DNA of 64,000 bases from Dysgonomonas sp. BGC7 (GTDB taxonomy: Bacteria > Bacteroidota > Bacteroidia > Bacteroidales > Dysgonomonadaceae). The stretch lies in assembly GCF_001261735.1 (NCBI RefSeq), contig NZ_CVRP01000010.1:395562-459561 (forward strand). Reading direction: 5' to 3'. A program made the position numbers and the translations under genes. A model generated the notes under the pieces. The model made no database searches, had not been told where the DNA came from, and saw only the letters and a program-made list of their open reading frames with translations. Positions 23,049 to 54,204 of this stretch are shown in pieces (the stretch's first letter is position 1; each line of letters opens with the position of its first letter).

Positions 23049-23061
23049 ATTTATCCTGTTT

Positions 23062-26307: not shown

Positions 26308-26447
26308 TATAGACTGTTATTTAAGGTTTAAATAATAGAAGATTATTAATTAAAACAGATGATAAAATGATGATTTATTGACCTCAAACATTTATATTTG
26401 TAGTGAGGCTTTTTGTTTACCGACAAAAAAAGAATCATCTTTACAGG

Positions 26448-26477: not shown

Positions 26478-26540
26478 TTTTCTTTTCTTATGTAGAGTTT
26501 TTATTCATATATCTTTTTTTTAGTTTAACTTGGTATTGAA

Positions 26541-27533: not shown

Positions 27534-27614
27534 CTTTTTCTATGTGCTTCTATAATAATTAGAATTAAGAGTATGTTTTGGACTACAAAACGCACTCAAA
27601 TTAACTTTGTTTAA

Positions 27615-30947: not shown

Positions 30948-30960
30948 CAATATAGATTAT

Positions 30961-30996
30961 GCACAGAGAACTGAGATGAATATCAATTCTCTGTGC
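30961..30996 (+). terminator. hairpin after the receptor-like gene
   Basis: GCACAGAGAA (30961-30970) pairs perfectly with TTCTCTGTGC (30987-30996) around a 16-nt loop, 14 bp after the stop codon. The downstream T content is moderate (TTCTCTTACG), so it may be a terminator or an attenuator ahead of the LytS gene at 31046. Confidence 0.65.
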
Positions 30997-31045
30997 TTCT
31001 CTTACGGAAATATGTATCTTAGACCTCTCTATTATTAATATTTAT

Positions 31046-32080
31046 ATGAATCAGCAGTCTTTTATATATAAGTTTTTATTAATGCCTCAATTCCGTGTTT
31101 GGAGATATTTGGCTCTTATCATATTTTTCACTATCGTATCACTCAATCAGGCTCTTACAGGCTACAAAGACATCATGCCATTGATGGGGAGAAATATATA
31201 CTGGATAGTGTCAGGTACAATTCTTTTTTATATAATGACTGTCTTTCTGGTTTTGAGAACCATCCTAAAATATCTGTTATCAGGTAAATACATCTTGTTT
31301 ATCATTTCCATTATCTTATGTGCTGCATCCTTCACAGCCATACCTAATATAATATCTGCTGTATACATAGATGGTTACGATCTATTTTGCGAAACTACGA
31401 TAATAGATAATTTATCAGCTTATGTCATTTATATTTTATGTATTTCGGGCGTTATTATTCCTGTTTTCTTAAGAAATTGGATGATTTCAAACCAACATCT
31501 CAGTCTGCTAAAAATAAAACAAGAATCGTCGCAAGTAGAACAGTTGAAAGAACAAATAAATCCGGCTTCTTTCTTCAAAATACTAAATAAGAGTGGAGCC
31601 CTTGTAAAAACAGAGCCTGATAAAGCTTCTACAATGTTGATGAAACTAGGACAACTGTTACGTTATCAATTATACGATTGTAACAGAGCTCAAGTATTGG
31701 TTAGTGCTGAAATCTCATTTCTTCGTAACTTTCTCGATTTGGAAAAATTATATTCGCCTAAGTTTAACTATACAATAAATCCTGTTGGGAATATAAATGG
31801 GATATTCATATCCCCATCTATCCTTCTACCTTATGTTCAGAACATTATGAACACAATCAACTATGATAGAGAAATGCAGACAATGAATATCCAGATAAAC
31901 AACCTCGACAAATCTATACGAATAATTATCAGTATAACAGTTACAAGCAACAGCTCTTTGCAAAGAGAATTACTAAAAGTAGAAGAGCGACTGAACACAC
32001 TGTATAGAGATCATTATAAGTTGATTGTTTCAGATAAAAATGAAAATACTAAAGTATCACTGGAATTAGATAAGATATAA
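31046..32080 (+). CDS. LytS-type sensor protein lacking the phospho-acceptor histidine (pseudokinase)
   Basis: Membrane protein of 344 aa with the layout of a LytS/YpdA histidine kinase: about four membrane helices in residues 18-143, then a cytoplasmic region starting near 150. The kinase motif normally reads NPHFLFN; here it reads INPASFFKILN, so A174 replaces the phosphorylated His. The ATP-binding half is also worn down: the N-box position reads LLPYVQNIMNTIN instead of FVENAVKH, and the glycine-rich G-box is absent. The frame is intact and it is followed after 2 bp by a complete LytS kinase, so it is probably a maintained partner, for example a heterodimer subunit or a sensor arm, and not a decaying gene. 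Confidence 0.82.
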   Translation: MNQQSFIYKFLLMPQFRVWRYLALIIFFTIVSLNQALTGYKDIMPLMGRNIYWIVSGTILFYIMTVFLVLRTILKYLLSGKYILFIISIILCAASFTAIPNIISAVYIDGYDLFCETTIIDNLSAYVIYILCISGVIIPVFLRNWMISNQHLSLLKIKQESSQVEQLKEQINPASFFKILNKSGALVKTEPDKASTMLMKLGQLLRYQLYDCNRAQVLVSAEISFLRNFLDLEKLYSPKFNYTINPVGNINGIFISPSILLPYVQNIMNTINYDREMQTMNIQINNLDKSIRIIISITVTSNSSLQRELLKVEERLNTLYRDHYKLIVSDKNENTKVSLELDKI

Positions 32081-32082
32081 AT

Positions 32083-33162
32083 ATGCAAATTACAGAAAAC
32101 AATAACAATCTCATCATAAAGCTATTGACGCATCCTTATCTAAAAATATTCAGACATCTGATCTTACTCATATTCATAGCTTCTATCTCCGGAGGATTTA
32201 TTTGGTATATGCAAGAAGAAGTTGAAATGACAACTTTCCAACGATATGGAGGATTACTTTTCTTTATATTTATATTCTTGGGAAGTATATATCTGAATAT
32301 TTACATTCTAGTGCCCAAACTATTAGAAAAAAATAAGTGGGCAATGTATTTTAGTTCTCTGCTTAGTGTTGTTCTACTAATAATATTACTCATCTTTCTC
32401 ATTCAGGCTATATATATTCCCAAAGCACCTTCTACAGCAAATGAGACTAATATTTTTAGTATTATTATAAATGTGTTATCATCTACCATGTCTATTTTTC
32501 TTTTGCTTGTGGGCACCACAACTCTTGTTTTATTCAAACATTGGATTTCAGACATGAAGCAATCTGAAGAATTGGAATCAAATACCTTATCATTAGAATT
32601 GAAACTACTGGAAAACCAAATAAATCCGCATTTCCTTTTCAACATGCTCAACAATGCGAACATTATGATAAAAAAAGATCCTGAAGCAGCCTCTAATATC
32701 ATATACAAGTTGGAGGAAATGCTCCGATACCAAATGAACGACAACACTCGTAAAAAAGTGCTACTGAAAGAAGAAATATTATTCCTTGACGATTATCTGG
32801 AACTTGAGAGAACACGAAGAGATTATTTTGATTATATTATTTCCACTGATGGAAATATAGACCAGATAGAGCTTCCTCCCCTACTGTTTATTACCTTTGT
32901 AGAAAATGCAGTGAAACATAATTCAGCCAACAGTACCAATTCTTATGTACATATCATGTTTACTCTAAATAAAGAGCAATTGATTTTTATTTGCGAAAAC
33001 TCAATATCTCAACGACCTATACCTATCGACAAACAAAATAATGGCGGAATAGGACTTATAAATATAAGACGGCGCCTTGATCTTCTTTTCGAAAACAATT
33101 ATTCTTTAGAGCAAACTAAAACGAAAGTAAGTTATACAACAAGATTAATACTAAACTTATGA
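32083..33162 (+). CDS. LytS-type sensor histidine kinase
   Basis: Sensor kinase of 359 aa with four membrane helices (about 23-45, 56-78, 88-112, 125-150) and a cytoplasmic His-kinase domain: LLENQINPHFLFNMLNN with phospho-acceptor H183, LRYQ at 215, N-box FVENAVKHNS (N275), G-box NNGGIGLINIRRRLDLLF near 320. All motifs are intact, in contrast to its upstream paralogue. It ends 4 bp into the response regulator gene (ATGA-type overlap at 33159-33162), so the two are translationally coupled and almost certainly a cognate pair. Signal unknown; the neighbouring receptor-like protein is a candidate output or input. Confidence 0.93.
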   Translation: MQITENNNNLIIKLLTHPYLKIFRHLILLIFIASISGGFIWYMQEEVEMTTFQRYGGLLFFIFIFLGSIYLNIYILVPKLLEKNKWAMYFSSLLSVVLLIILLIFLIQAIYIPKAPSTANETNIFSIIINVLSSTMSIFLLLVGTTTLVLFKHWISDMKQSEELESNTLSLELKLLENQINPHFLFNMLNNANIMIKKDPEAASNIIYKLEEMLRYQMNDNTRKKVLLKEEILFLDDYLELERTRRDYFDYIISTDGNIDQIELPPLLFITFVENAVKHNSANSTNSYVHIMFTLNKEQLIFICENSISQRPIPIDKQNNGGIGLINIRRRLDLLFENNYSLEQTKTKVSYTTRLILNL

Positions 33163-33872
33163 AATGTATCATTGTAGATGATGAACCTATAGCTCGTGAA
33201 GGCATTAGATTACTGGTAGATGAAATTCCACAACTAGAATTACTAAAGAGTTTCAACAATGCAGAATCAGCTGCCGAGTTCATCAAAGATATAACTGTCG
33301 ACCTTATTTTTTTAGACATCAATATGCCGGGTATCAACGGTATAGAGTTTGCTCATAGCATACCTAAACATACACTTATTATTTTCACCACAGCTTATTC
33401 ACAATATGCTCTCGATAGTTACGAGGTGGATGCAATAGACTATTTAGTAAAACCTATCGATTCTATAAAATTTCGCAAAGCAGTAAATAAAGCGATTGTT
33501 TACCACTCTCTATTGATAAATGAAGAAAAGAAGAGAGTAGATAGTATAGAAGATGAATACATTTTTGTAAAATCGGACAGGAAATATTTTAAAGTAAATC
33601 TGGACGATATTCTATTTATAGAAGGGCTTAAAGATTATGTCATCATTCAGATGAATAATCAACGTATCATTACAAGAATGAGCCTTAAAGCGATAAATGA
33701 ACTTCTACCTACAAGCATATTTTTCAGAATAAACAAATCATATATAGTAAACAAAAATCACATCGAATCTTTTGACAATAATGATGTTTTTATCAAAAAT
33801 TACGAAATTGCTATAGGATATACTTTTAGAGAAGATTTCTTTAAAGACTTTACCAATAATAAATCATTGTGA
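33159..33872 (+). CDS. LytTR-family response regulator
   Basis: Response regulator of 237 aa: receiver domain at 1-115 with the acidic pair at D7-D8, phospho-acceptor D53 (FLDINMPGING) and the conserved Lys in DYLVKPIDS; then a LytTR DNA-binding domain at about 138-235 (YIFVKSDRKYFKVNLDDILFI, RINKSYIVNKNHIESFD). Overlaps the kinase gene by 4 bp. LytTR proteins bind direct repeats upstream of targets; I could not identify such repeats with confidence near 28596 or 31046. The downstream ECF operon starts 197 bp later and has its own -7 element. Confidence 0.94.
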   Translation: MKCIIVDDEPIAREGIRLLVDEIPQLELLKSFNNAESAAEFIKDITVDLIFLDINMPGINGIEFAHSIPKHTLIIFTTAYSQYALDSYEVDAIDYLVKPIDSIKFRKAVNKAIVYHSLLINEEKKRVDSIEDEYIFVKSDRKYFKVNLDDILFIEGLKDYVIIQMNNQRIITRMSLKAINELLPTSIFFRINKSYIVNKNHIESFDNNDVFIKNYEIAIGYTFREDFFKDFTNNKSL

Positions 33873-34068: not shown

Positions 34069-34692
34069 TTGGACGAATTCGAACTATTTGAAAGAATAAA
34101 GCAGCGAGACACAACTGCCTTCGACATACTATTCAGAAAATACTACACACCCCTGTGTCGTTTTTCGTATACTATATGTCTTTCACAGACAGATGCGGAA
34201 GAAAGTGTTCAAGATATGTTTGTCAATTTGTGGGAAAAAGCACCTACAGTTAATATAGACACCTCTCTCAAAGCATATCTATACAGATCGGCTCGCAACT
34301 ACACACTCAATATATTAAAAAAACAACAGACAGAAGAACATCATCTTAGTCGGTATGCTGAAATAGAAGAGGCTGATGAGATTAGTGAGAAAACACCCGA
34401 TGCTGAAATAGGACGGCTTATACAAGCTGGAGTAAATACTCTACCCGACAGATGTCGTGAGATATTTGTACTCTGCAAACAAGAAGGGCTCACATACGAG
34501 GAAATAGCGGAATATCTCAATATCTCGAAAAAAACAATTGATAATCAAATGGGTATTGCATTACGCAAACTACGGGAATATCTCTACCCTATGTTGAAAA
34601 AAATTTCTATTCTTTTATTTTTTTCAACGCATCTTTTAGGGATAATTGTTTTTTGTATTGTCGTATATAATATAATGAGAAATGAAATATAA
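34069..34692 (+). CDS. ECF sigma factor with C-terminal membrane segment; TTG start
   Basis: ECF-type sigma factor of 207 aa. Region 2 is at about 18-85 (AFDILFRKYYTPLCRFSY, DAEESVQDMFVNLWEK), region 4 at about 122-172 (LPDRCREIFVLCKQEGLTYEEIAEYL, HTH KKTIDNQMGIALRKLR). The start is TTG at 34069; no ATG precedes the conserved region 2 residues in this frame. Residues 178-203 form a long uncharged hydrophobic stretch (ILLFFSTHLLGIIVFCIVVY), long enough to span a membrane, which is unusual for a sigma factor. The gene overlaps fecR by 11 bp, implying coupled translation. Proposed role: transcription of the downstream STN/GldM-like/VIT-vWA genes. Confidence 0.9.
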   Translation: MDEFELFERIKQRDTTAFDILFRKYYTPLCRFSYTICLSQTDAEESVQDMFVNLWEKAPTVNIDTSLKAYLYRSARNYTLNILKKQQTEEHHLSRYAEIEEADEISEKTPDAEIGRLIQAGVNTLPDRCREIFVLCKQEGLTYEEIAEYLNISKKTIDNQMGIALRKLREYLYPMLKKISILLFFSTHLLGIIVFCIVVYNIMRNEI

Positions 34693-35665
34693 TATGGAAA
34701 ATATTCCCTACGAACTGATCGCACGTTATCTTGCCGGAGAATGCAACGATAATGAGAAACAGCAAGTCTTGGAGTGGAAGCTACAAAATCCGGAAATGAT
34801 GGACGAATTCACAAAGATGTGGGCGGAGATACCATCTAACGAATTTACACCCGATCAAGAACTAGCTTTGCAAAAGGTAAAGTACCGAATTAGCACACAA
34901 AAAGAGAAAAAAGCAAAACGTTTACCACTCTTTGTAGGAGGTATAGCTGCTGCCGTTGCTATTGTTTTCATTTTGATAAACGTAATAATAAAAGAAACAC
35001 AGGACAATACTCTGCAATCTAATGATACATCATGGCTAACTCTGAGCACGGATACTGACGAAATAGAAGAATATCTCCTACCCGATGGAAGCAAAGTGTG
35101 GCTCAATCAGTCCTCATCTATACAATATCCTCAAGTATTTGAAGGAAATACGCGCGAAATACATCTCGAAGGGGAAGCTTTCTTTGAAATTGCACCTAAT
35201 GCTGACAAGCCATTTATCATACATGCCAATAATACACAAACAAGAGTAGTAGGAACATCTTTCGGTGTGAAGGCAAGAAAAGACAACGGTGAAGTTATAG
35301 TAACTGTATCTACAGGTATAATCAATTTTTCAGCCGAAGGAGAAACAGATCACATACAACTTGTAAAAGGAGAACAAGGGATATGTAACCCTAAAGAAAG
35401 AATATTGGAGAAAAACACAAGCCCTGACCCCAATCTTTTGGCATGGAAAACAAAAATATTAATATTCGAACAATCTTCGCTGACTCAAGTGAGTAAACTT
35501 CTGGAAGAAGTATATCATACTCCCGTAACAGTAGACAGCTCGGTAGCTGACCTGCGAATTACCAGCACATTCGATCAGATGAGCCTATCCGAAATTTTAC
35601 AAATTATAGAACTCACCCTAAACATACATGCTGAAGAAACTCCAGATGGCATAATGTTGAAATAA
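34682..35665 (+). CDS. FecR-family anti-sigma factor
   Basis: Anti-sigma factor of 327 aa: cytoplasmic N-terminal part with YELIARYLAGECNDNE, one membrane helix at 81-103 (PLFVGGIAAAVAIVFILINVI), periplasmic FecR domain at about 120-215 (YLLPDGSKVWLNQSSSIQYP, LEGEAFFEIAPNADKPFII) and a C-terminal DUF4974 module (SQVSKLLEEVYHTPVTV). It starts at ATG 34682 inside the sigma gene; a second ATG at 34694 would avoid the overlap. It is expected to receive its signal from an STN domain, and here that domain is found in the separate gene at 35783. Confidence 0.93.
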   Translation: MKYNMENIPYELIARYLAGECNDNEKQQVLEWKLQNPEMMDEFTKMWAEIPSNEFTPDQELALQKVKYRISTQKEKKAKRLPLFVGGIAAAVAIVFILINVIIKETQDNTLQSNDTSWLTLSTDTDEIEEYLLPDGSKVWLNQSSSIQYPQVFEGNTREIHLEGEAFFEIAPNADKPFIIHANNTQTRVVGTSFGVKARKDNGEVIVTVSTGIINFSAEGETDHIQLVKGEQGICNPKERILEKNTSPDPNLLAWKTKILIFEQSSLTQVSKLLEEVYHTPVTVDSSVADLRITSTFDQMSLSEILQIIELTLNIHAEETPDGIMLK

Positions 35666-35782: not shown

Positions 35783-37012
35783 TTGTCTAACAAGAAAACA
35801 ACTTTAGTTTTGAAAATATTAATCATCATAATCTCTCTTTGTATAGGCACGATTTCTATTGTTGCTCAAAATACCGTTTTAGAGAAACGAATTACTGTTG
35901 TAATAAAGAATATGCCAATGGATAAAGCTGTAGAAAAAATTGCAGCTGAAGCCGGAATCCATGTATCGTACTCCAGCGATTTGTTTAGCGATTGTGATGT
36001 TGCAAACATAGAGGCAAAAGATCATATGTTGCTTACCGTTCTCAACAAACTGTTCGAGCCCTACAAAATAGCTTATACTGTTCATGCCGGACAATTAATC
36101 ATCTATCCGAAAAAAACAATAATAGTAAAAGAATATACCATACGAGGTTCTTTTTGTAACAGCGACACACACGAACCAATATCTTACGCTACATTACAAA
36201 TAAAAGGAAAACCCAAAGGAGTAATAGCAGACCACGAAGGCTATTTCGAATTTACTATTTCAGAACTGGAACTTACCGATAGTCTGACAGCTTCTTGTCT
36301 GGGATATGAGAGACGCACATTCAGCTCCGATTCTCTATTAGTAAAACCAGAAATTATAATAAGCCTGAAAGGTAAATCACTAGAAATAGATCCCGTTACA
36401 GTAGAAGCCGTAAACAGCCAAATAAAGAAATATAAAAAAGCAGGCAACCGCAGTTGGTTTACCACCGGATCTATGTATCTGGATACACACGGACAACAGG
36501 TTGCATTATACATAGAGAATAAAAAGAAAGAGAATGGATATATACGCACGATAAGCTATCATTTGTCAAAAAACGGAAATGTAGAAGCTCCATTCCGGGT
36601 GCGTATACTCGAACAGGACATTATCTCCAAAGCACCGGGCAAAGACTTACTGCAAGAGATATTAGTGGTACAACCTCCGCAAAATACTGACGGATGGTAC
36701 GATGTAGATCTTACGGAATATAATATATCAATACCTGACAATGGCTTTTTTGTAGCTATACAAGGCGTATTTCCTAACGATTACAGTTATTATGCAAACG
36801 ATTCGGGAGCGATAGAAAGAGGTAAACGCAACACAAAGGGAAACGATGACTTCAGTCCTAAATCTATACATTATGGACAACGTATCAACTACTCGGGTAA
36901 AGGAGGAAGTAACACATGGCATTATTCGCTATCCCATCAATGGTTTCAGATGGAGAAAGATAATTATAGTGTAAAGATTTCTGCAGAAATCGGAATATAT
37001 TCAGATAAGTAA
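35783..37012 (+). CDS. barrel-less STN + carboxypeptidase-regulatory-like exported protein; TTG start
   Basis: Exported protein of 409 aa with the front end of a TonB-dependent transducer but no plug or barrel. Signal peptide 1-29 (ISIVAQ), STN domain at about 35-110 (VVIKNMPMDKAVEKIAAEAG, LLTVLNKLFEPYKIAY), carboxypeptidase-regulatory-like domain at about 118-205 (IRGSFCNSDTHEPISYATL), then a ~200-residue C-terminal beta-rich module (FRVRILEQD, WYDVDLTEYNISIPDNGFFVAIQG) of a type I know from other Bacteroidetes exported proteins but cannot assign a ligand. The start must be TTG at 35783 or a later TTG, because a stop codon lies two codons upstream and the first ATG falls inside the STN domain. 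Its position after fecR suggests it is the periplasmic input to FecR. Confidence 0.8.
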   Translation: MSNKKTTLVLKILIIIISLCIGTISIVAQNTVLEKRITVVIKNMPMDKAVEKIAAEAGIHVSYSSDLFSDCDVANIEAKDHMLLTVLNKLFEPYKIAYTVHAGQLIIYPKKTIIVKEYTIRGSFCNSDTHEPISYATLQIKGKPKGVIADHEGYFEFTISELELTDSLTASCLGYERRTFSSDSLLVKPEIIISLKGKSLEIDPVTVEAVNSQIKKYKKAGNRSWFTTGSMYLDTHGQQVALYIENKKKENGYIRTISYHLSKNGNVEAPFRVRILEQDIISKAPGKDLLQEILVVQPPQNTDGWYDVDLTEYNISIPDNGFFVAIQGVFPNDYSYYANDSGAIERGKRNTKGNDDFSPKSIHYGQRINYSGKGGSNTWHYSLSHQWFQMEKDNYSVKISAEIGIYSDK

Positions 37013-37074: not shown

Positions 37075-38100
37075 ATGAAACATATCGGTTTACTATGCTT
37101 AATAGCCATTTGCATATGCCTCTGTCGGGGACAAGCATATGCGCAATGCGACAATACATTGGTGGACAAAGCCATTTCGCAAAGCGGAACCAACGCCGTA
37201 TATCTGCGCGAATTTAAAGTAAGATTCGACGGCTTGGAAAAAGGCAAAATACCTTTGGCCAGATACCTAGTCTTGTTAAGTAAAAATACTACATACAGAT
37301 TTAATGTGTGTAATGCTGAAGGTTTCGAAGGTAAAGTTGTATTGCAACTATACCTGAAAGATAAACTAGAGAGAAGTACATTCGATTCTAAAAAGAACAA
37401 AGATCTACAACGCTTCGATTTCACTCCTGACAAAGCAGCAACTTATGAGGTAGTAATGTCTTTCGCCGAAGGCAAAGCAGGATGTGCAGTAGGCATACTA
37501 TCCATGCTATCCGACAAAGATATTACACTCGACAAAGACAATCAAGACGAGTTGGATATATTATATGCTAATGCCGACAACCCGGTAGTTATATATGATG
37601 ATGAAGACGATTTTGCCGATATTGATGTAGAAATAGATAACGGCACTATTACCCGTGCAGAAGGTGTAAATTACATTATCCATCCACAGGAAACAGGAAC
37701 AGCGTTATTAACAATACGTGTTCTCAACCGTAATGGTACTCTCAGAGAGTTTAAACAGAAAAAATATGCTGTATTTGCTATGGATAAGCCTTATGCAGCT
37801 ATACGTGGAGCAGAAAATAATATAGTGATAGACAAACAAGAACTTATTACATCGGGACGTATCGATCTATGGTTTTCAGAAAACATGAAATGTAATTATC
37901 AAATTATATCTTTTATTCTATCCGACAAAAATGACCTTATCAGTGGAATAAGTTCCACCTCTTCTAAATTCTCGAAATCGCAAAAAGAGTGGCTAAAAAA
38001 ACAACCGGAAGGTACACGCCTCTATATAAAAAACATAAAGGCAAGAACTGCTGATCATGTAGTAATGGATATAGCTCCTATAGACTTTGAGATAAAATAA
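37075..38100 (+). CDS. exported protein with GldM C-terminal-like (D3-D4) domains
   Basis: Secreted protein of 341 aa with a signal peptide (1-24, ending QAYAQ) and no membrane helix. Residues about 152-240 (LDILYANADNPVVIY, VEIDNGTITRAEGVNYIIHP) and 242-341 (IDKQELITSGRIDLWF, FSKSQKEWLKKQPEGTRLYIKNIKAR) read like the third and fourth periplasmic domains of GldM/PorM, the type IX secretion/gliding motor subunit, without its cytoplasmic and transmembrane parts. The first ~130 residues, with three Cys, are unassigned. It lies between the STN protein and the VIT/vWA receptor on the same strand, so a periplasmic scaffold for that system is plausible; a direct link to type IX secretion is not shown. 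Confidence 0.7.
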   Translation: MKHIGLLCLIAICICLCRGQAYAQCDNTLVDKAISQSGTNAVYLREFKVRFDGLEKGKIPLARYLVLLSKNTTYRFNVCNAEGFEGKVVLQLYLKDKLERSTFDSKKNKDLQRFDFTPDKAATYEVVMSFAEGKAGCAVGILSMLSDKDITLDKDNQDELDILYANADNPVVIYDDEDDFADIDVEIDNGTITRAEGVNYIIHPQETGTALLTIRVLNRNGTLREFKQKKYAVFAMDKPYAAIRGAENNIVIDKQELITSGRIDLWFSENMKCNYQIISFILSDKNDLISGISSTSSKFSKSQKEWLKKQPEGTRLYIKNIKARTADHVVMDIAPIDFEIK

Positions 38101-38227: not shown

Positions 38228-41200
38228 ATGAAAAAAATAAAAGATATGAAATTAAGAACTTTATATATACTATTGTTTCTACTGATGGGAACTGTAGCAT
38301 TTGCGCAAGAGATGCGCGTTGTCTCAGGTGTAATAAAAGATAGCAGCGATGAACCTATCATTGGTGTTACTGTAGTACAAAAAGGGACTACAAATGGTAC
38401 TGTTACGAATCTCGATGGATATTATGAGATCAAAGCCCCGTTAGGCAGCACTCTGCTATTTTCGTTCATAGGGATGAAGCCCTCAGAGATGAAAGTGACT
38501 ACCTCGAATTCAAAACCGACAGGCGGCTCTGTGCCTAGTGCAATTCTCCCAATCCAAGTTACAGCACCTATAGCTGTTTCTGAGACTCCTGAGGCAGAAA
38601 CTAAATCTGATGAAGATAAAGTAAAACCCAAAGAAGTACAACCAAGCCGCGAAGACCAGTCTCTATCGCCTTACTTCCTGATAAGGAGCAACTCTCCAAA
38701 AGAATCGGAGATGCCATTAAAAAACACAGAAGTAGAAGTAAGCATAGCCGGAGTTATAGCTGATATTTGTGTAAAGCAGATATATATCAACCAAAGTAAA
38801 AATACACTGGAGGCTGTATATGTATTTCCCGGATCGACAAGAGCAGCTGTATATGGTATGGCTATGACTGTAGGAAACAGACGTATAGATGCAAAAATAA
38901 AAAAGAAGGAACAAGCACGCAAAGAATACGAACAAGCCAAATCGGAAGGAAGATCCACTACCCTGCTCGAACAGCATCGTCCGAACGTTTTTCAGATGAA
39001 TGTTGCTAACATATTACCCGGAGACACAATTGTTGTAGAAATGAAATATACGGAACTTCTTGAACACGAAAAAGGAATATATGAGTTTGTTTACCCCACA
39101 GTAGTAGGTCCTCGATATAGCGAATCGGGAGAACAATGGGTAGATAAGACTATAGATATGTTTTTCAATCAGAATATGCCACAGTTTTCTATTAAGACTA
39201 CCGTTCAGGCAGGTATGCCAATACAAAAAATAAGTAGTCCTTCACATAGTCTGACCATAGAATCGCCTTCTGCCGATCAAGCAATAGTATCGTTATCGAA
39301 TCCCGAAGATAATCAGGGAAACAAAGACTATATTCTGCAATACGAACTGCAAGGAGGAAAAGTAGAATCGGGCTTATTGCGCTACGAGCATGGAGATGAA
39401 AACTTTTTCTTATTAATGATGCAGCCTCCTAAAAAACCTACTTTGGATCAGATACCTCCTCGCGAATATGTTTTTATTGTCGATGTATCGGGCTCCATGC
39501 ACGGTTTTCCGTTAGATGTATCGAAAAGATTGATCCGCAACCTCATCTCTTCGCTTCGTCCTACCGACAAGTTTAATGTAATGCTATTTGAATCGAGTAA
39601 CCAAATGCTATATGATAAATCGGTAGCTGCAACAGAAAACAATATAGATAAGGCTATAAAAGTCATCAATCAGCAAAAAGGTAGCGGCAGCACACAGTTA
39701 TATGCAGCCGTGAAAAATGCAATGAATTTTAACGAAACCGAAGGCTTTTCACGTACTTTCATAATTGTTACCGATGGTTTTGTCACAGTAGAAAAAGAGG
39801 CGTTCAACTATATCCGTGAAAATCTGAATAAAGCAAACTTATTTCCTTTCGGAATAGGGACGAGTGTAAACCGTTATATGATAGAAGGTCTTGCTAATGC
39901 GGGAATGGGCACTCCTTATATTGTTACCAACCACACACAGGCAGAAGCCATAGGAAAGAAAGCGATAAAAGAAATTTCAGAGCCGGTACTGACAAATATT
40001 TCTATAGACTGGGGCTACTTCGATGTGTATGATGTAGAGCCGGTAGCTATCCCCGATGTGTTTTCGGAGCGTCCGATGCTTGTATATGGAAAATATAAAT
40101 TACCAGCAGACGGAACAATAACCGTTAGCGGTATAGCAGGCAATTTGAGATATGAACAAAAATTCGACGTAGACAAAGCCCGTGTAGAAAACAATCAGGC
40201 ATTGCGTTACCTTTGGGCACGTAATCAAATACGCTACATCGACGATTATGCCCAATACTACGAAGGTAGTATAAATGGATGGAGAGACATTTATGGCAAT
40301 CACACCAGAACAACGAGCCAAATAGAACGGGTAACCAATCTGGGACTAAAATATAATCTACTGACTCAGTACACTTCTTTTCTTGCTGTAGACGATGTAG
40401 TGAGAAATGTCCCTGAATATAAGAAATCAACTCCATCTTATAGTAGTAGTTCTACACCACAAACTGTTACATCTCCTAATATACAACTATCGGAAAACCA
40501 AGCAAATCTGGAAGAAGTTGTTGTTGTCGGTTATGGTACAACCCGAAGAGATGGCCTCACAAGTAGTACTTCCAGTATATCCGGCAATGAAATATCTGGT
40601 TCGGTATCACACGTTTTGCAAGGAAGAGTTGCAGGATTGCAAATTACTCAAACATCCGGAGAGCCGGGAAGTCCGGCAAGAGTCCGTATCAGAGGAGCTA
40701 GTTCTATTATAGACAACAACACTCCATTAGTGATACTTGACGGAGCACCTATAGAATACAATGATTTTTCACGTATAAACTCAAATGATATAGAAAGTAT
40801 CACTATACAAAAAGATGCTTCTGCTGCAGCAATATACGGATCTAAAGCTGCTAATGGAGTATTGATAGTGACAACTAAAAATCCTAAACATCAGAAACAT
40901 TCCATCTCATATTCTTCATCTTTTTCTATCGACAACCCTAACAAATTGCCAAAGAAACAGAGCGAATATACCCAAGGACGTCCTGTAAACGGAACTCCAG
41001 TATGGAATAAAGAAAACGAATCGTTTAGTTGGGGGCCTAGTGTAAGCTCTGTAAATGCACCAACATATAATGCATTCGATATTTTAGAAACAGGATATAC
41101 AATTAAAAACCATCTGACATTGACCAGAAGGAATGACGATATTCATTATACTCTAAAATTAGGGAATAATACACAGCAAGGCTTTATCCCTAAATCTAAA

Positions 41201-43135
41201 TTAAATGAGACTTCATTCGGACTTAAAGTAGGAGGGCAATGGAGCAAAAAACTAAAATTCGATATAGACCTCAATTATAAAAATACAAATGGTAAACGTT
41301 TGCAACATGGATATAATATGTCCGGATTTATGCAAGGTATTCTTCTTTCTCCGCCAACATTCGACAATAGAAAAACAACTTTAGCGGATGGAAGCCAAAA
41401 TACAGCAGGCACTGCCAGTGACAATCCTTACTGGACTACAGAAAACAACCCATTCAAAGATGAGACGAATCGTTTTGTAGGAAATGCAAATTTCTCCTAT
41501 AAATTATTCGACTATTTGACTCTCGGATATGCTATAAACGGAGAGTATATGACAGGAGAAGCAAGCACAGCCCTGAATAAGAGCTCAATCTATATTCCTA
41601 CCGGTCATATTATGAACAGAGATGAAAAATTCAAGGCTTTGCAGCCTAAGTTTACTGTACAATTCGACAAAAACTTCGACAACATTGGAGTTAATGCGAT
41701 GGTCGGACATGAATATAATAATACCAAACGTACTATCGACCGTATAGATGGATATGATTTAGTAAAAGCAGGTGATTATAATATTATTAACGCTATCACT
41801 ATTAATCCTTACAATCAATCGTTCAGACGTCATTCGAATGCTGTATTCGGAAAGGCGGCAGCTAACTACCTCAGGAAGTTCATGCTAGAAGCAGCTATGA
41901 GAAGTGAATGGAGTTCTATTAGCGACAAAACATTGTTTTCCCCTTCGCTGGGCATAGCAACTAACTTGCACGAAATGTTCTATAGCGAGCTATTCTCCAA
42001 TATCAAAATATCTGCAAATATTTCGAAAGCAGACAAGGAGATTCCTCTGTATGTAGATCCTGTATATTTCAATTCTGCGATTTATAACCTCAATGACGGT
42101 ACACAACATTTCGAAAGCAGAGAAATAATTGTATCCGATGATCTGAAACCAGAGAATATAGTAAACTACAGCATAGGTGCAGAAATAGGGATGTGGAACA
42201 ACCGCGTGTCACTATCTGGCTCTATATATTGGAAAAAAGCAAAAGATCAATTATTGCCGGTACAGGTATCACCAACTGCTATACGTTTCGATAATTATGG
42301 CTCATTTAAAGCACATGGGCTGGAAATAGAATTATCTGCTTATATTATAAACAATAAAAATTTCAAATGGAACAGTCGCCTTATATTCTCCCGCGAACGT
42401 AATAAAATAACTAATCTTGAAGGTAAAAATCTAATGCTGGCAGGAATAGAAAATGCAGCAGGGTCATATGCGATAGAGGGTCAGCCTCTGGGAGTAATAT
42501 ATGGCACAGCCTACAAACGTGATGCACAAAGGCGTATGATCATAGGAAGTGACGGGTTTCCTGTTGTAAACGAAGAACTTCAGATTCTGGGAGATCCTAA
42601 TCCTGATTGGCAGCTAGGATGGGCACATTCAATCGAATACCGCAGACTTTCATTGTCTTTACTGTTTGATTTCAAAAACGGTGGAAAGATGTGGAATGGT
42701 ACGAAGAACATGATGAACTATTATGGAACGTCACAGTACTCTGCCGACCATCGTAATACGACAAATTACATTTTCCCGGGAGTATTTGCCAACGGACAAG
42801 AAAATAATATTCCTGTTAATTTCTATGGAAACAATCTTGACGAAAATCGTTGGGTACGCTATGGACGTTATGGTGTAGGAGAAGACGCTATAGAAAATGC
42901 AAGTTATATCAAACTGAGAGAAATAACATTAAGTTATCGTATTCCGTTACGTATATCGAACAGACAAACATGGCTAAAAACGTCTGTGTATGCTACTAAT
43001 ATATTACTATACAGTAAATATAAAGGTATAGATCCGGAGACTAATCTTACAGGGTCATCCAATGGCTTCGGATTAGACTACTTCAATGTTCCGGGCACAC
43101 GTAGTATAGGTATGTCGCTCAATTGGGAATTTTAA
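38228..43135 (+). CDS. VIT-vWA-SusC fusion: TonB-dependent receptor with inter-alpha-trypsin-type insert
   Basis: A 1635-aa composite protein. Signal peptide 1-26 (GTVAFAQ), carboxypeptidase-regulatory-like domain about 30-92, Pro/Glu-rich linker 93-145, VIT domain about 147-300 (NTLEAVYVFPGSTRAAVYGM, NVFQMNVANILPGD), vWA domain about 411-590 with a complete MIDAS (D419, S421, S423 in DVSGS; T489; D516 in VTDG), a VIT/vWA-type tail ending NLLTQYTSFLAVDD near 721, Ser/Thr linker, LEEVVVVGYG at 761-770, plug about 775-885 (LQGRVAGLQI, LVILDGAPIEY, IQKDASAAAIYGSKAANGVL) and a SusC-type barrel ending in GMSLNWEF. In an ordinary SusC the regulatory-like domain leads straight into the plug; here ~670 residues sit between them. 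No STN domain and no SusD follow. By SusC topology the VIT/vWA part should be periplasmic. A second ATG at 38246 is an equally possible start. Confidence 0.92.
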   Translation: MKKIKDMKLRTLYILLFLLMGTVAFAQEMRVVSGVIKDSSDEPIIGVTVVQKGTTNGTVTNLDGYYEIKAPLGSTLLFSFIGMKPSEMKVTTSNSKPTGGSVPSAILPIQVTAPIAVSETPEAETKSDEDKVKPKEVQPSREDQSLSPYFLIRSNSPKESEMPLKNTEVEVSIAGVIADICVKQIYINQSKNTLEAVYVFPGSTRAAVYGMAMTVGNRRIDAKIKKKEQARKEYEQAKSEGRSTTLLEQHRPNVFQMNVANILPGDTIVVEMKYTELLEHEKGIYEFVYPTVVGPRYSESGEQWVDKTIDMFFNQNMPQFSIKTTVQAGMPIQKISSPSHSLTIESPSADQAIVSLSNPEDNQGNKDYILQYELQGGKVESGLLRYEHGDENFFLLMMQPPKKPTLDQIPPREYVFIVDVSGSMHGFPLDVSKRLIRNLISSLRPTDKFNVMLFESSNQMLYDKSVAATENNIDKAIKVINQQKGSGSTQLYAAVKNAMNFNETEGFSRTFIIVTDGFVTVEKEAFNYIRENLNKANLFPFGIGTSVNRYMIEGLANAGMGTPYIVTNHTQAEAIGKKAIKEISEPVLTNISIDWGYFDVYDVEPVAIPDVFSERPMLVYGKYKLPADGTITVSGIAGNLRYEQKFDVDKARVENNQALRYLWARNQIRYIDDYAQYYEGSINGWRDIYGNHTRTTSQIERVTNLGLKYNLLTQYTSFLAVDDVVRNVPEYKKSTPSYSSSSTPQTVTSPNIQLSENQANLEEVVVVGYGTTRRDGLTSSTSSISGNEISGSVSHVLQGRVAGLQITQTSGEPGSPARVRIRGASSIIDNNTPLVILDGAPIEYNDFSRINSNDIESITIQKDASAAAIYGSKAANGVLIVTTKNPKHQKHSISYSSSFSIDNPNKLPKKQSEYTQGRPVNGTPVWNKENESFSWGPSVSSVNAPTYNAFDILETGYTIKNHLTLTRRNDDIHYTLKLGNNTQQGFIPKSKLNETSFGLKVGGQWSKKLKFDIDLNYKNTNGKRLQHGYNMSGFMQGILLSPPTFDNRKTTLADGSQNTAGTASDNPYWTTENNPFKDETNRFVGNANFSYKLFDYLTLGYAINGEYMTGEASTALNKSSIYIPTGHIMNRDEKFKALQPKFTVQFDKNFDNIGVNAMVGHEYNNTKRTIDRIDGYDLVKAGDYNIINAITINPYNQSFRRHSNAVFGKAAANYLRKFMLEAAMRSEWSSISDKTLFSPSLGIATNLHEMFYSELFSNIKISANISKADKEIPLYVDPVYFNSAIYNLNDGTQHFESREIIVSDDLKPENIVNYSIGAEIGMWNNRVSLSGSIYWKKAKDQLLPVQVSPTAIRFDNYGSFKAHGLEIELSAYIINNKNFKWNSRLIFSRERNKITNLEGKNLMLAGIENAAGSYAIEGQPLGVIYGTAYKRDAQRRMIIGSDGFPVVNEELQILGDPNPDWQLGWAHSIEYRRLSLSLLFDFKNGGKMWNGTKNMMNYYGTSQYSADHRNTTNYIFPGVFANGQENNIPVNFYGNNLDENRWVRYGRYGVGEDAIENASYIKLREITLSYRIPLRISNRQTWLKTSVYATNILLYSKYKGIDPETNLTGSSNGFGLDYFNVPGTRSIGMSLNWEF

Positions 43136-44555: not shown

Positions 44556-45947
44556 TTATTTTCTCTCATTATAAACTCCAAATTCGGCAATAGAAGGAGT
44601 TCCATTAGACTTTATCACCACCATGCGCACAGCATCTCCCCATACCGTATCGAAACGATGTATCTTTACTTTCAACGATGTTGGAGCTTTTCCTTCATAA
44701 AGGGGCTTCCAAGCATCATTTACACGATATTCTAAACGGTACTCCTGCAATCGGTCATTATTTCTATCTGTGATAACAATCATATTGAAAGCCTGTTCTT
44801 TATTCAGAGATACTGAATACCAAGGATTCTTTACTTCCGGATTTGAATTCCAACAAGAACCAAAATCATCATCATTCGCAAAATCCATTATTGCATAATC
44901 GCTACTCCAAGTACCCTCAGATGGTTTGTACTTAGCAATATTGGAAGAAATGATAGGAGCATCAGCCTGTGGAATAACTGCAACTTGTCCATCATTTTTC
45001 CAAAGCTTTCCTATTTCTTTCAGGGCTTTCAGTGCATTTGCATCTATAAGCCCATCTCTGTTAGGTGCCACATTTAGTATAAAGTTACAATATACTTTAC
45101 CCATAGGAATAATATTATCATTTACCATCTTTTCTGGCGATTTCACAACTGTAGCAGGGAAGCTTTCTTTCCAAAACCAGTTTGCCTGCAATGGTAAGCA
45201 AGATAAGGCAGGCAATCGGTTCGAATCTTTCGATATATGCTGCCCGGCTCCTTGCTCATAAGACTTTATATCGGTATAAAATAGAGCTTCAGCAGGATAT
45301 TTGGCTGCATTAAGATCCATTACCAAACAGTTTGGCTGTATAGATTTAATCAAACGGTAAATTTCTTCGAAAGGGACTTCATCGTAAGAAATTCGTGACC
45401 AAGGAGCATCCCATCCATCAATAATCAAAGCAGAGATTTCTCCATAGTTGGTAAGCAGTTCACGAAGCTGTGCTTTGATCATATCTATATGCTTTGGTGT
45501 TATACTATTAGGACGTAGACGAGCATGCGTATCAAGAATTGAGTAATAAAGCATCACTCCTAATCCTTCAGCCCGAAACGCATCGGCATACTCTTTCACT
45601 ACATCTCGTTTAAAAGGACTATTCATCACACTATAATCAGTTGTTTTCGTATCCCATATACAGAATCCACTATGGTGCTTTGTAGTAAGGCAACCATATG
45701 TCATATTTGCAGATTTAGCAGCCTGCGCCCACTGTTTACAATCCATTTTTACAGGATTAAACAATTCAGGAGAAGCATCAGGATCGGGCCAATCTTCGTT
45801 AAAAAACGTTGGCATATTAAAATGAATAAACATACCGAATCGTAAATCTACAAAATCCTGTTGTAACTGATGAAGTGATTTTGTCTGAGCACCTGCACAG
45901 AGAAAGGAAATAATACTAAGGATCAAGAACAAATACAGTTTTTTCAT
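44556..45947 (-). CDS. GH29 alpha-L-fucosidase with C-terminal discoidin-like domain
   Basis: Family 29 retaining alpha-L-fucosidase, 463 aa, with a signal peptide (1-20, ending CAGAQ). The N-terminal barrel has RFGMFIHFNMPTFF near 35, the substrate-pocket LTTKHHSGFCIWDT near 90 and the probable nucleophile Asp in ALIIDGWDAPW. After the barrel, residues about 340-463 form a beta-sandwich of the F5/8 type C kind (WYSVSLNKEQAFNMIVITDR, RLEYRV, VRMVVIKSNGTPSIAEFGVY). Last gene of PUL3. A fucosidase beside GH92 mannosidases points to fucosylated N-glycans of plants or insects, which purely fungal mannan would not require. Confidence 0.9.
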   Translation of the reverse strand: MKKLYLFLILSIISFLCAGAQTKSLHQLQQDFVDLRFGMFIHFNMPTFFNEDWPDPDASPELFNPVKMDCKQWAQAAKSANMTYGCLTTKHHSGFCIWDTKTTDYSVMNSPFKRDVVKEYADAFRAEGLGVMLYYSILDTHARLRPNSITPKHIDMIKAQLRELLTNYGEISALIIDGWDAPWSRISYDEVPFEEIYRLIKSIQPNCLVMDLNAAKYPAEALFYTDIKSYEQGAGQHISKDSNRLPALSCLPLQANWFWKESFPATVVKSPEKMVNDNIIPMGKVYCNFILNVAPNRDGLIDANALKALKEIGKLWKNDGQVAVIPQADAPIISSNIAKYKPSEGTWSSDYAIMDFANDDDFGSCWNSNPEVKNPWYSVSLNKEQAFNMIVITDRNNDRLQEYRLEYRVNDAWKPLYEGKAPTSLKVKIHRFDTVWGDAVRMVVIKSNGTPSIAEFGVYNERK

Positions 45948-46014
45948 TATCAGAAAATTAGTTATTAGTAAATTAATTTAGTTTGTCGTTTATTATGTGG
46001 TTATTTAAATTCAT

Positions 46015-47334
46015 TTAGCCTTTTTGTAATTTTACCCACATGCCAGAAGTAGGACTTAGTAAATAAATATAGTCTTTTAATTTAGCTACATAAAGTCCAT
46101 CCTTATCGTACCAGAAGCCTAAGAATATAGTGAATTTAGTATTGATGCCGGCAATTTCTTCTTGAGTGAAGCCACCCCACCCTACTATTCCGGTTGAAGA
46201 CATCTTTGTAAAGAATACTCTATCACGTTCTCCATCCCTTGTTATACTTGCACCCGGAGCACTACTTGGGAAAGCCAAAGTGGAATAACCACTGGCATTC
46301 ATTGCCCAAAATACAAATGGACGAGACATCTTCATATTATCATCTCCATAACTACTAAATAATTCGATAGATACTACTGTAGCTGAGGAGACCCCATCTA
46401 TCTTAGAACCTGTTTCATTCCATATCTCCTGACATGCAGCACCTTTAGTACCATGAACAGATTCTTTTGCACATGCCCATTTTGTTTGGTAATTATCGAA
46501 TGTAACAACAGCAGCATCATTAGAAGTCACAGTTAACTGAGCCGAATTCAATCCATTAATAGTTACCACACCATCTTTAACCTTAATACTTTCTATAGAA
46601 CATTTATCACTCGTAGTCATTGTCTTAAATTCGGGTACAGGTGTTTCTAACAGAAATAATTCGCCTTCTTTTTTTAGAGTCGAAGTATATACTTTCGTAT
46701 GACCATATAAATCGCTATCTCCTGTTTTTTCTATTGTAATTACTTTAATCTTTATTTCAAATTTCTGATAATCCACATATGTCATATAATAGGCTACAAA
46801 TTGCTCACTGCCATATCTTATCACGGCCGGAGTAAGTGATGCATAATCTCTTATTTTTTCCAAAAAATCAGCTTTCTGAGCCGTATTGGCATCCATAGCA
46901 GCTTTTGTGGCCGGAACAAGAATTAATGATGCTCCGGTGTTCTCTCCTTTACAAACTATTTTATCTTTTGAAACTTCTGAAATAACCAATTGATCTTCGG
47001 TCAAATCACTACCTAGATAAGCAAAATGCCCTCCTCCCTCGATAGTTAACAAAGTCTCTTTTCTTTTTGTAGTAAAAGTAGCAGCAGATTCAGTAGGGTC
47101 TTTCATCTGCTCAGAATCCATCGTTACTGTTCCTGATTCTTTAAATTGAAAATAAAATTTATATCCGGCATACTCTGTTGCCCAACAGCCATCAGGAGCT
47201 GCATATACTATCGGTTTCACGTCCGAAGGTTTTAAACGGTCTCCATCGCCATATCCCACATCGCTCAAGTCGAGTGAGTCGCAGCTATAGAAAACTGCAC
47301 ACAACACTACTAATGCAAATAATACTTTTTTCAT
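46015..47334 (-). CDS. DUF4302-like lipoprotein of PUL3
   Basis: Lipoprotein of 439 aa; signal peptide ends VFYSC (C18) followed by DSLDLSD, favouring surface export. The N-terminal segment GCWATEYAGYKFYFQFKESGTVTM resembles DUF4302 proteins, lipoproteins often seen in PULs with peptidase-like and GH92 genes. The rest is beta-rich with alternating short strands and no catalytic motif. It lies between GH29 and a GH92 in PUL3, so a surface glycan- or glycoprotein-binding role is likely. The family label is from memory of motif shape and is the weakest part of this call. Confidence 0.6.
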   Translation of the reverse strand: MKKVLFALVVLCAVFYSCDSLDLSDVGYGDGDRLKPSDVKPIVYAAPDGCWATEYAGYKFYFQFKESGTVTMDSEQMKDPTESAATFTTKRKETLLTIEGGGHFAYLGSDLTEDQLVISEVSKDKIVCKGENTGASLILVPATKAAMDANTAQKADFLEKIRDYASLTPAVIRYGSEQFVAYYMTYVDYQKFEIKIKVITIEKTGDSDLYGHTKVYTSTLKKEGELFLLETPVPEFKTMTTSDKCSIESIKVKDGVVTINGLNSAQLTVTSNDAAVVTFDNYQTKWACAKESVHGTKGAACQEIWNETGSKIDGVSSATVVSIELFSSYGDDNMKMSRPFVFWAMNASGYSTLAFPSSAPGASITRDGERDRVFFTKMSSTGIVGWGGFTQEEIAGINTKFTIFLGFWYDKDGLYVAKLKDYIYLLSPTSGMWVKLQKG

Positions 47335-47365
47335 AATAGTCTATTTTTAATTAACATTAGGTATA

Positions 47366-49684
47366 TTATTTATTTTGATATTTCATTGTCTTTCCCGGTA
47401 AAGAAAGAGAAGGTGCTACAGCATCGTCCGATACCGCACGCCTATAGTTTGGTTTATCACTCATCACAAAGCGTAATTTCACCCCGTCACTAATATTTTC
47501 GTACCTCAGGTACGACTTGTCATATTTTTTCTCGTTTACGTATAATTCTTTCACATAGATATTCTCCTTTGACCAGTTATCAGCAATCATATCTATTATT
47601 TTCCCATTACTCATTTTTACAGTAATAGCCTCTACACAAGGAGAACCAATGTTATAAATATTGCTTGATGGTGCAATAGGATAAAAGCCTATACAATTGA
47701 ACATGTACCAAGCCGACATCTGCCCGCAATCGTCATTTCCACTCAATGCATCGGGCGTATTACCATAGAAACGGTCAGCAATAGTACGAATCCACTTTTG
47801 GCATTTCCAAGGTTCTTTTACATAATTGTAGAGATAAGCTATATAATGACACGGTTCATTACCATGCCAGTATGCTCCTATGCGCCCTTGTATATCATGT
47901 GCTCCGGGAATATCCTCAGGCAAATCAGTTGTAAACAAATCGTCGAGTCTCTTGCGAAACAAATCTTTACCCATCTCGTTGATATAGCCTTGTACATCAT
48001 GTGGAACATACCATGTATATTGCAGAGTAAAGCCTTCGGTTATGTCTCCCCAACCATGTACTGACCCAGGTCCCTGATAGGCTATAGGAGTAAACGGCGT
48101 ACGCCAATTTCCTCGACTATCTCTTCCTCGCATATATTTAGTTTCGGGGTCTATAAGAGTCTGATAAGAGAGTGCCCGATTGAGGAAATAATGATAGTCA
48201 TCTTCTTTTCCAAGACATTTGGCCGCCTGAGCTATACAATAATCGTCGTAGGCATATTCCAGTGTTTTGGAAACAGATTCTGCTTCTTTGTCGAACGGAA
48301 CATAACCTAGAGTACTATACAGAGGTAAGCAATCGTAGTTAGGATTCATTGCTGTGGCTTTCATAGCCTGATAAGCTCGCTCGTAATCGAATCCTTTGAC
48401 TCCTTTGACAATCATATCAGACAATACCGAAACTGCGTGGTAGCCAATCATACACCATGTCTCATTACCGTAAAACGACCAGATAGGCAACATTTTTTCT
48501 ACACTCTTATCGTAATGAGCAAGCATAGAATTTGCTACATCTGCATTTACGTCCTGCTGAACTAGGTTAAACCATGGATGCAATGCCCGATAAGTATCCC
48601 AAAGAGAAAACACTGTATAGTTAGTGAACCCCTCTGCTTTTTCGATATTCTTATCCAAACCTCGGAAACTTCCGTCAGAGTCTTGAAAGATAAATGGGTG
48701 TAATGCTGAATGATAAGCAGAAGTATAAAAAGTTTCTTTGGTTTTCTTATCAGCAACTAACGTATATTTACCAAGTTCTTTTTCCCAAAGACGCTCTCCA
48801 CGATTCTTCAAACTATCGAACGAGATATTATCCAATTCCTTTATATTACGCATAGCTCCATCTGTACTGACTGCTGAAATAGCTGTTTTCACAATTACTT
48901 CTTCTCCTTCTTCGGTATCGAAAGATATACAAGCCATCAGATTTTTACCCCAAGCCTCATAGCTGCTTCGAAAACGGGAAGTGTTATAAATCACAGGCTT
49001 TTTGTCCTGCATAAAACGTAGCCCTGTTAGTTTTTTAGAAAAAACAGCAGTAAAATAAACATATCGCTCGGGTCCCCATCCTTTTACCAACTTATATCCG
49101 GTGATAGTAGAATCATTTACCATACGAAGGTTGGCCCATTCGCATGACTGCCACAATGTATGATCCATATCTATAAGTATAAATGCTTTATCCGATTTAG
49201 GATAAGTAAAGCGAAATATGCCGCTACGTACTCCGGAGGTCATCTCTGCTTTTATGCCATAATCAGACAATTCGACTGCATAATAGTTGGGCGACGCCCA
49301 TTCTTTATTGTGCGAATAACGAGAGCGATAACCGCCTTTGGTATCTTCATGTGTTCCCGGATCGAGATGTATTTCCCCTATGCCGGGCATAAACAGAAAA
49401 TCGCCTAAATCGGGAATACCTGTTCCACTAAGATGAGTCAGACTAAATCCTAAAATGGTAGTGTGTTTATACTTATATCCGGAAGCTGCATCATAATATT
49501 TACGGTCTGTATCGGGACTAATTTGTATTCCTCCAAATGGAATTTGAGCACCCGGATATACATTCCCATAGCCATCAGTACCCACAAAAGGGTTCACATA
49601 GTCGGTCAACTTAACAGTTTGCGCTATATTTGTCAAAGAGACTAAAAGCAGTAAAACGAAAAGAAAATGCCTAAGTGTTTTCAT
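47366..49684 (-). CDS. GH92 alpha-mannosidase A
   Basis: Family 92 calcium-dependent exo-alpha-mannosidase, 772 aa from ATG at 49682-49684, which gives a clean signal peptide (MKTLRHFLFVLLLLVSLTNIAQ); an in-frame ATG 60 bp upstream would overlap the BSP-like gene. Blocks: YVNPFVGTDGYGNVYPGAQ, FSLTHLSGTGIPDLGDF, TNYTVFSLWDTYRALHP, GFTLQYTWYVPHD (general-acid region), WHGNEPCHYIAYLY and GNDDCGQMSAWYMF (general-base region). No lipobox, so probably periplasmic. It shares the HGNEP and NDDCG blocks with enzyme B, unlike enzyme C. Confidence 0.94.
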   Translation of the reverse strand: MKTLRHFLFVLLLLVSLTNIAQTVKLTDYVNPFVGTDGYGNVYPGAQIPFGGIQISPDTDRKYYDAASGYKYKHTTILGFSLTHLSGTGIPDLGDFLFMPGIGEIHLDPGTHEDTKGGYRSRYSHNKEWASPNYYAVELSDYGIKAEMTSGVRSGIFRFTYPKSDKAFILIDMDHTLWQSCEWANLRMVNDSTITGYKLVKGWGPERYVYFTAVFSKKLTGLRFMQDKKPVIYNTSRFRSSYEAWGKNLMACISFDTEEGEEVIVKTAISAVSTDGAMRNIKELDNISFDSLKNRGERLWEKELGKYTLVADKKTKETFYTSAYHSALHPFIFQDSDGSFRGLDKNIEKAEGFTNYTVFSLWDTYRALHPWFNLVQQDVNADVANSMLAHYDKSVEKMLPIWSFYGNETWCMIGYHAVSVLSDMIVKGVKGFDYERAYQAMKATAMNPNYDCLPLYSTLGYVPFDKEAESVSKTLEYAYDDYCIAQAAKCLGKEDDYHYFLNRALSYQTLIDPETKYMRGRDSRGNWRTPFTPIAYQGPGSVHGWGDITEGFTLQYTWYVPHDVQGYINEMGKDLFRKRLDDLFTTDLPEDIPGAHDIQGRIGAYWHGNEPCHYIAYLYNYVKEPWKCQKWIRTIADRFYGNTPDALSGNDDCGQMSAWYMFNCIGFYPIAPSSNIYNIGSPCVEAITVKMSNGKIIDMIADNWSKENIYVKELYVNEKKYDKSYLRYENISDGVKLRFVMSDKPNYRRAVSDDAVAPSLSLPGKTMKYQNK

Positions 49685-49694
49685 ACAGATTTGT

Positions 49695-50486: not shown

Positions 50487-50506
50487 CTTTTCTTATATTG
50501 TTATTA

Positions 50507-52837: not shown

Positions 52838-52839
52838 CT

Positions 52840-54177: not shown

Positions 54178-54204
54178 AATATTAATTTTTAGTCTTTTTT
54201 ACAA

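Follow-up and report, generated by a model that had tools for sequence, protein, structure and literature searches.

TonB-dependent transducers are usually understood as a relay from ligand to plug, STN domain, FecR and sigma factor, in which the STN domain is carried by the receptor itself. The VIT-vWA adhesion module is best known from a mammalian blood protein, and PARP4, which has a VIT-vWA part, is an intracellular protein. According to the available part of PMC7782687, the STN domain contacts FecR-type regulators, and the SusCs of sigma-controlled loci carry an STN domain together with an N-terminal extension (NTE). A barrel-less STN protein, VreA, belongs to the sigma/anti-sigma system VreA/VreI/VreR (PUMA3) of Pseudomonas aeruginosa, as described in the available part of PMC2729926. 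Here, we analyzed a 64,000-nucleotide stretch of a Dysgonomonas sp. BGC7 contig (the window) and found that the gene at 38228-43135 (plus strand) encodes a SusC-type TonB-dependent receptor in which a 575-aa VIT-vWA module is placed between the NTE and the TonB box. This fusion is the last gene of an operon that reads, in order, an extracytoplasmic function (ECF) sigma factor, FecR, an STN-bearing protein, a PorM/GldM-like protein and the fusion. The parts and the logic of the system are known, and their combination is new.

The fusion gene is a single uninterrupted ATG-to-stop frame of 1635 aa. Pfam and the NCBIfam model TIGR04056 bear out what an earlier note on this DNA had read from the letters, namely that one frame joins a regulatory-like domain, VIT, vWA, plug and a SusC barrel. 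It contains a carboxypeptidase-like NTE domain (38321-38515, aa 32-96; CarbopepD_reg_2, PF13715, 2.6e-17), a VIT domain (38717-39049, aa 164-274; PF08487, 2.1e-34), a vWA domain (39470-39913, aa 415-562; VWA_3, PF13768, 3.8e-19), the TonB box LEEVVVVGYG (40508-40537, aa 761-770), a plug (40559-40861, aa 778-878; PF07715, 1.3e-15, model positions 6-107 of 107) and a SusC-type barrel (40883-43132, aa 886-1635), with all four Pfam matches above the curated cut-off. The SusC/RagA model TIGR04056 covers aa 748-1635 with 521.8 bits against a cut-off of 368.25 and reaches its last position (981 of 981); with plug and barrel complete, the fusion therefore passes as a SusC/RagA TonB-linked outer-membrane protein. 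The NTE is present ahead of the TonB box as well, but the VIT-vWA stands between the two.

The vWA domain keeps all five residues of the metal ion-dependent adhesion site (MIDAS), D419, S421, S423, T489 and D516, at the positions given in the earlier note, and they are invariant in 53 of 53 rows of our alignment A3. The intact motif suggests that the domain would bind Mg or Mn. The modelled VIT-vWA module matches the ITIH1 fold over 514 residues in a structure aligner, in a comparison that covered mainly model residues 381-591 and barely the plug and NTE of the model. Ahead of the TonB box lies a fast-evolving linker (40394-40507, aa 723-760; dN 0.43-0.73 at aa 723-757) that is largely disordered in the model, in which the predicted local confidence (pLDDT) falls below 50 at model residues 705-753 (aa 730-778). 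Because the N-terminal extensions of such receptors are periplasmic, the VIT-vWA module probably lies in the periplasm, which agrees with the placement by SusC topology proposed before. An STN domain was absent from the receptor both in the Pfam protein scan and in a genome search at its place at E<=1.

The ordinary arrangement is found in the same window on the minus strand (21567-28196; assigned by Pfam), where SusD (21567-23156), an STN-NTE-SusC receptor (23062-26307), FecR (26541-27533) and a sigma factor (27615-28196) lie together, and where STN, NTE, plug and barrel are on one protein that is accompanied by SusD. Compared with this locus, the fusion operon has the STN moved to a separate protein and a VIT-vWA on the receptor, and SusD was not found. 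As in transducers of the FecA/FpvA type, an ECF sigma factor and a FecR-type regulator adjoin the receptor, while the STN domain is not on it. The absence of SusD, also remarked in the earlier note, was confirmed with a profile built from nine SusDs of the window's genome, which found none in 11 fusion loci (two of them on the same contig, and some contigs short) and matched in all four independent control SusC loci of another genome, G988 (L221, L224, L228 and L232; L numbers denote loci or proteins and G numbers genome assemblies, the window's own being G000).

The operon, on the plus strand, begins with an ECF-type sigma factor of 207 aa (34069-34692; Sigma70_r2 3.1e-11, Sigma70_r4_2 1.1e-13, Sigma70_ECF 2.5e-6 in Pfam), and the gene for the 327-aa FecR-type anti-sigma regulator (34682-35665; FecR 1.3e-17, FecR_C 2.7e-10) overlaps it by 11 bases. 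The third gene (35783-37012) encodes a separate, periplasmic-type protein of 409 aa with an STN-like region, an NTE (CarbopepD_reg_2 at 120-207, 6.7e-10) and then ~200 aa without a Pfam match; it has neither plug nor barrel. Its putative STN domain was recognized by profile-profile comparison alone, against five STN domains of the genome's own SusCs (94.7%, P 1.3e-8), where the FecR_C control gave 1.7%. A PDB search with this protein gave nothing usable, nor did a structure model of it (pLDDT 37). The fourth gene (37075-38100) encodes a GldM-like protein of 341 aa that matches TIGR03517 at 7.4e-14 with 51.4 bits, below the cut-off of 180. Its residues 159-340 correspond to the C-terminal part of PorM/GldM, for which homologous frames have 505-571 aa, and its residues 1-148 resemble a small standalone protein, with homologous frames of 149-179 aa. 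The gene order is the same beside three other fusions (L031, L032 and L053), and beside a fourth (L033) the contig ends inside the 409-aa gene. The sigma orthologues at the same place in L031, L032 and L053 are 60.7-75.9% identical, and the FecR orthologues, two of which were confirmed by Pfam, are 52.2-63.8% identical. The genes beyond the operon vary, with a DPP-IV-type peptidase beside L031 and PNPase beside L032.

The fusion is rare, and it recurs. Including the window's own, we found eight distinct VIT-vWA-SusC fusion proteins, five of which form the Dysgonomonas-type group. The seven others lie on other contigs: L031 (=L052), L032 (=L051), L033, which has lost its 3' end at a contig end, L053, from a genome deposited as 'Bacteroides sp. 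51', L057 (=L181), from a metagenome-assembled genome of the Bacteroidales, L180, from G752, and L003, which lacks the NTE and is encoded on a plasmid of Pontibacter sp. G13. Of the genus, Dysgonomonas sp. 511 and PF1-14 were the named members among the genomes found. Among 25 genomes of the genus, 4 have frames of 1599-1653 aa, and frames of more than 1500 aa were seen in 5 of 393 genomes of the order. Matches to a VIT-vWA profile (E<=1e-60) came from 15 genomes out of 395 at the phylum level, 53 out of 393 at the order level and 15 out of 395 at the class level, in overlapping samples, and frames of more than 1200 aa were found in two, five and five of these genomes, respectively. By this survey, VIT-vWA is not restricted to this receptor. 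Two genes joined by a frameshift or an assembly junction, which the earlier note had named as a finding that would speak against the fusion, are excluded as well, since the same domain order recurs in the seven further proteins.

In a phylogeny of the VIT-vWA part, the seven fusions from Bacteroidales group together as a clade (support 99) and L003 falls elsewhere; a single clade of all eight is nevertheless compatible with this part in the approximately unbiased (AU) test (p 0.156). For the SusC part, one clade of all eight is rejected (AU p 0.00045) in a test that used a quick tree and in which L003 and L057 are long branches. L057 and L003 belong to the second of the two main halves of the SusCs. 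In the window's own genome, no SusC paralogue comes closer than 30% identity. A single origin of the whole fusion was therefore not retained, as the SusC part rejects one clade while the VIT-vWA part does not. Since the SusC moieties are not one clade, at least two different barrels have been used, and separate fusion events and barrel exchange fit the evidence alike.

The closest relatives of the fusion's VIT-vWA are separate proteins of ~740-890 aa that have the same core and are 47-54% identical. We classified the tails of 76 of 93 family proteins, leaving out seven SusC fusions, four outer-membrane barrel or plug forms, four tails shorter than 60 aa and two proteins cut by contig ends. TonB_C was found in 42 of the 76, LysM in one and a type IX secretion system (T9SS) sorting domain in one; a TonB_C match at E<=0.01 was missing in 34 of the 76, though many of these look similar by eye. 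In the separate proteins, a linker of the pattern QPLPLPxGVSxxAV stands ahead of the tail, and 'QPLPLPxGV' is kept directly before the TonB box in L057, L180 and L003, although not in the Dysgonomonas type. Because many relatives end in TonB_C, which the fusions lack, and the linker is kept, the fusions look like VIT-vWA proteins in which TonB box, plug and barrel have taken the place of the TonB_C tail. The description of the module as inserted into a SusC with both parents keeping their ends thus fits the Bacteroidales forms, but not L003, which has no NTE, nor the TonB_C tail that many relatives have and the fusions lack. In two genomes, G744 and G752, a SusC fusion occurs together with a separate protein of the VIT-vWA-TonB_C type (L188 and L186).

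Other members show further endings. L182 ends in a plug and a small outer-membrane barrel, and L138/L184 ends in a small outer-membrane barrel, as does L185 when judged by eye. L192 and L193 had looked by eye like further TonB-receptor fusions; Pfam and NCBIfam show no plug or barrel in them, and they were not counted. Two VIT-vWA proteins (L194:7159-9093 and L195:7730-9709) have 'VPEPHEW' and a hydrophobic end that resembles a sorting signal by eye. The window's own genome contains a second VIT protein on contig C1 (L004, 8339-11374, 1011 aa) with VIT and DUF2135 by Pfam, which are separated by a TonB box and the beginning of a plug of the SusC type (TIGR04056 positions 65-131, E 3.5e-12). 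Such a plug stump was found by the SusC profile in 3 of 17 VIT proteins searched (L004, L043 and L039), none of which has a barrel; a barrel-less protein of this type could compete for TonB. A ~380-aa gene without a Pfam family lies directly 3' of VIT-vWA genes of the ~740-aa subfamily in nine loci (cluster 4; L077:10176-11312, L099:10119-11261 and seven further loci).

The neighborhood of ECF sigma genes extends to the family. We sampled the best 80 of 558 confirmed loci, or 77 without the three Dysgonomonas-type ones; some of their contigs are short. A gene of the sigma cluster is present in 30 of the 77 loci, within four open reading frames (ORFs) of the VIT-vWA gene in 29, and the zf-HC2 anti-sigma cluster (cluster 2) in 22. 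Sigma genes make up 29 of the 463 genes within four ORFs and 2 of the 279 farther out (p 9e-5, with the kinship of the loci ignored). In other phyla too, separate VIT-vWA genes are thus found close to ECF sigma genes more often than are the more distant genes of the same loci. Sigma factor, anti-sigma factor and VIT-vWA follow in strict order on one strand in 11 of the 80 loci, and Pfam confirms all four sigma factors and all four cluster-2 anti-sigma factors tested. In three Bacteroidota loci (L094, L106 and L118), the gene adjoining the sigma gene ends in TonB_C (3 of 3 tested); by their place these may be anti-sigma factors, and L118 alone has a weak zf-HC2 match. A short TonB-like protein and a VIT-vWA-TonB_C gene also adjoin in L094, so that several TonB_C domains lie in one sigma locus. 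The operon, the sigma neighborhood of the family and the recurrence of the fusion were all outside the earlier note.

The separate VIT-vWA-TonB_C proteins that lie near ECF sigma genes in several phyla could represent a class of sensors not yet described, and they offer a first hint at the function of bacterial VIT-vWA proteins. In the wide form of this idea, which we regard as doubtful, VIT-vWA proteins would be envelope sensors that serve ECF sigma/anti-sigma pairs across phyla and act through the interface of TonB and TonB box. Most would carry TonB_C and the SusC fusions the receptor side, and some Dysgonomonas paralogues without a barrel would retain just a TonB box and 50 residues from the start of the plug; the window's protein would be sensor and TonB-dependent receptor in one molecule, with STN on a separate protein.

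For the fusion itself we tentatively favor, at a little under even confidence, that it is the receptor of a rearranged, split-STN cell-surface-signaling system, in which the periplasmic VIT-vWA docks a partner in a metal-dependent manner. A ligand at the barrel, or a pull of TonB at the TonB box past the flexible linker, would change what the VIT-vWA presents. The Mg- or Mn-loaded MIDAS would bind an acidic residue of a periplasmic partner, for which the STN protein, the GldM-like protein and a second copy of the receptor are candidates. The STN protein would contact FecR, and FecR would free the ECF sigma factor, which would transcribe the operon. In this scheme we infer that metal is bound, that the proteins touch as described, which way the signal runs and which genes it reaches. 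The earlier note had likewise suggested that the module could gate the receptor or report on it. The operon replaces the STN of the receptor by an integrin-like MIDAS module, which makes it possible to ask by what other routes a receptor in the outer membrane may report across the periplasm.

Several observations weigh against this reading. The Pfam STN model PF07660 does not match the 409-aa protein even at E<=1. The operon neighbors were not found beside L057, L180 and L003, and the signaling partners are therefore not part of every fusion; the L180 fusion is preceded instead by a T9SS-adhesin-like set of a PKD/CHU_C protein, PorP/SprF and an OmpA-family gene (L180:932-9001). No sigma gene lies within four ORFs in 48 of the 77 sampled loci, where some contigs are short, and an ECF sigma gene beside a gene may mark a target and not a sensor. 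ITIH1 also binds several ligands independently of its MIDAS, according to the available part of PMC7170535.

In the main rival reading, the barrel is chiefly an anchor. The work would be done by VIT-vWA, which would bind or bridge in the periplasm and would have been joined to whatever envelope module was at hand, a SusC in this lineage. The varied tails of the family (TonB_C in 42 of 76, one LysM, one T9SS-type, small barrels, and sorting-like tails by eye) are as it would predict, and so are the SusC moieties of the eight fusions, which are not one clade (AU p 0.00045) and point to the use of different barrels. That test involves the long branches of L003 and L057 and a quick tree, however, and the Dysgonomonas-type barrels keep a TonB box, a complete plug and a full barrel, which is more than an anchor needs. 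As the sigma/FecR/STN operon points to signaling in addition, we consider the anchor role rather unlikely.

An ordinary importer in which VIT-vWA keeps a processing enzyme or a chaperone of the periplasm at the barrel exit would account for the full anatomy of a TonB-dependent receptor, and the module would be placed where imported material emerges. Yet SusD was not found in the fusion loci while all four control SusC loci of G988 have it, the five conserved genes include no degradative enzyme, and the fucosidase and GH92 genes of the window (44556-49744) lie on the opposite strand and do not accompany the other copies in the layouts inspected, which makes this role unlikely. Nothing was found in favor of a functionless chimeric gene or an artefact of assembly or read-through, and eight distinct proteins in different genomes, low dN and an invariant MIDAS speak so strongly against it that we give it hardly any weight.

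Around the operon, an NTE-bearing 783-aa protein, two His_kinase-family genes and a LytTR response regulator lie directly upstream (28596-33872), and a glycan-use cluster with an alpha-L-fucosidase-like gene, three GH92 genes, a BSP peptidase and a DUF4302 gene lies on the minus strand (44556-56496). Scans for promoters (43 found, 42.0 expected) and terminators (8 found, 6.3 expected) gave no information. The N-terminal 148 aa of the GldM-like protein (37075-38100) stand alone in other Bacteroidales (L208-L219); in L211-L213, L215, L216 and L219 this standalone module follows a ~300-aa gene and a ~1030-aa 'MSEEILKAL' gene in a conserved cluster.

Searches of open-licence full texts gave no description of a TonB-dependent receptor that bears VIT-vWA, nor of a connection between VIT proteins and ECF sigma factors. 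In the available parts of those that mention both inter-alpha-trypsin and TonB-dependent, VIT proteins appear only as entries in expression results. This agrees with the earlier statement that the architecture has no functional description, and the objection that it might be a characterized receptor class gained no support.

Among the closest known systems are the SusC/RagA receptors as the available part of PMC7782687 presents them, with which the fusion shares NTE, TonB box, plug, full barrel and the adjoining ECF sigma factor and FecR; unlike them, it has a VIT-vWA and no STN on the receptor, and SusD was not found. With VreA, in the available part of PMC2729926, the system shares an STN off the barrel, and the TolA/TonB-like C-terminal domain of VreA has its counterpart in many VIT-vWA relatives; PUMA3 is described there without VIT-vWA or a fused receptor, whereas the 409-aa STN protein has an NTE and not a TonB-like domain. 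ITIH1 (HC1; 6fpy and 6fpz, available part of PMC7170535) has VIT and vWA with MIDAS and the fold match over 514 residues, but it is a secreted animal protein without a barrel. The VIT-vWA part of PARP4 matches in sequence across the whole module (3.4e-33), and PARP4 has no barrel either. TIGR03788, the family of marine proteobacterial sortase targets, has the same VIT-vWA core (aa 166-768 of the fusion), although the fusion scores 401.8 bits against a cut-off of 551.65 and ends in a barrel, not in a sorting signal. Finally, the VIT-vWA-TonB_C proteins found in Bacteroidota, Thermodesulfobacteriota, Nitrospirota and further phyla (L034, L065 and L188 among them) are ~50% identical in VIT-vWA and often lie near ECF sigma genes, and they differ in having TonB_C in place of TonB box, plug and barrel.
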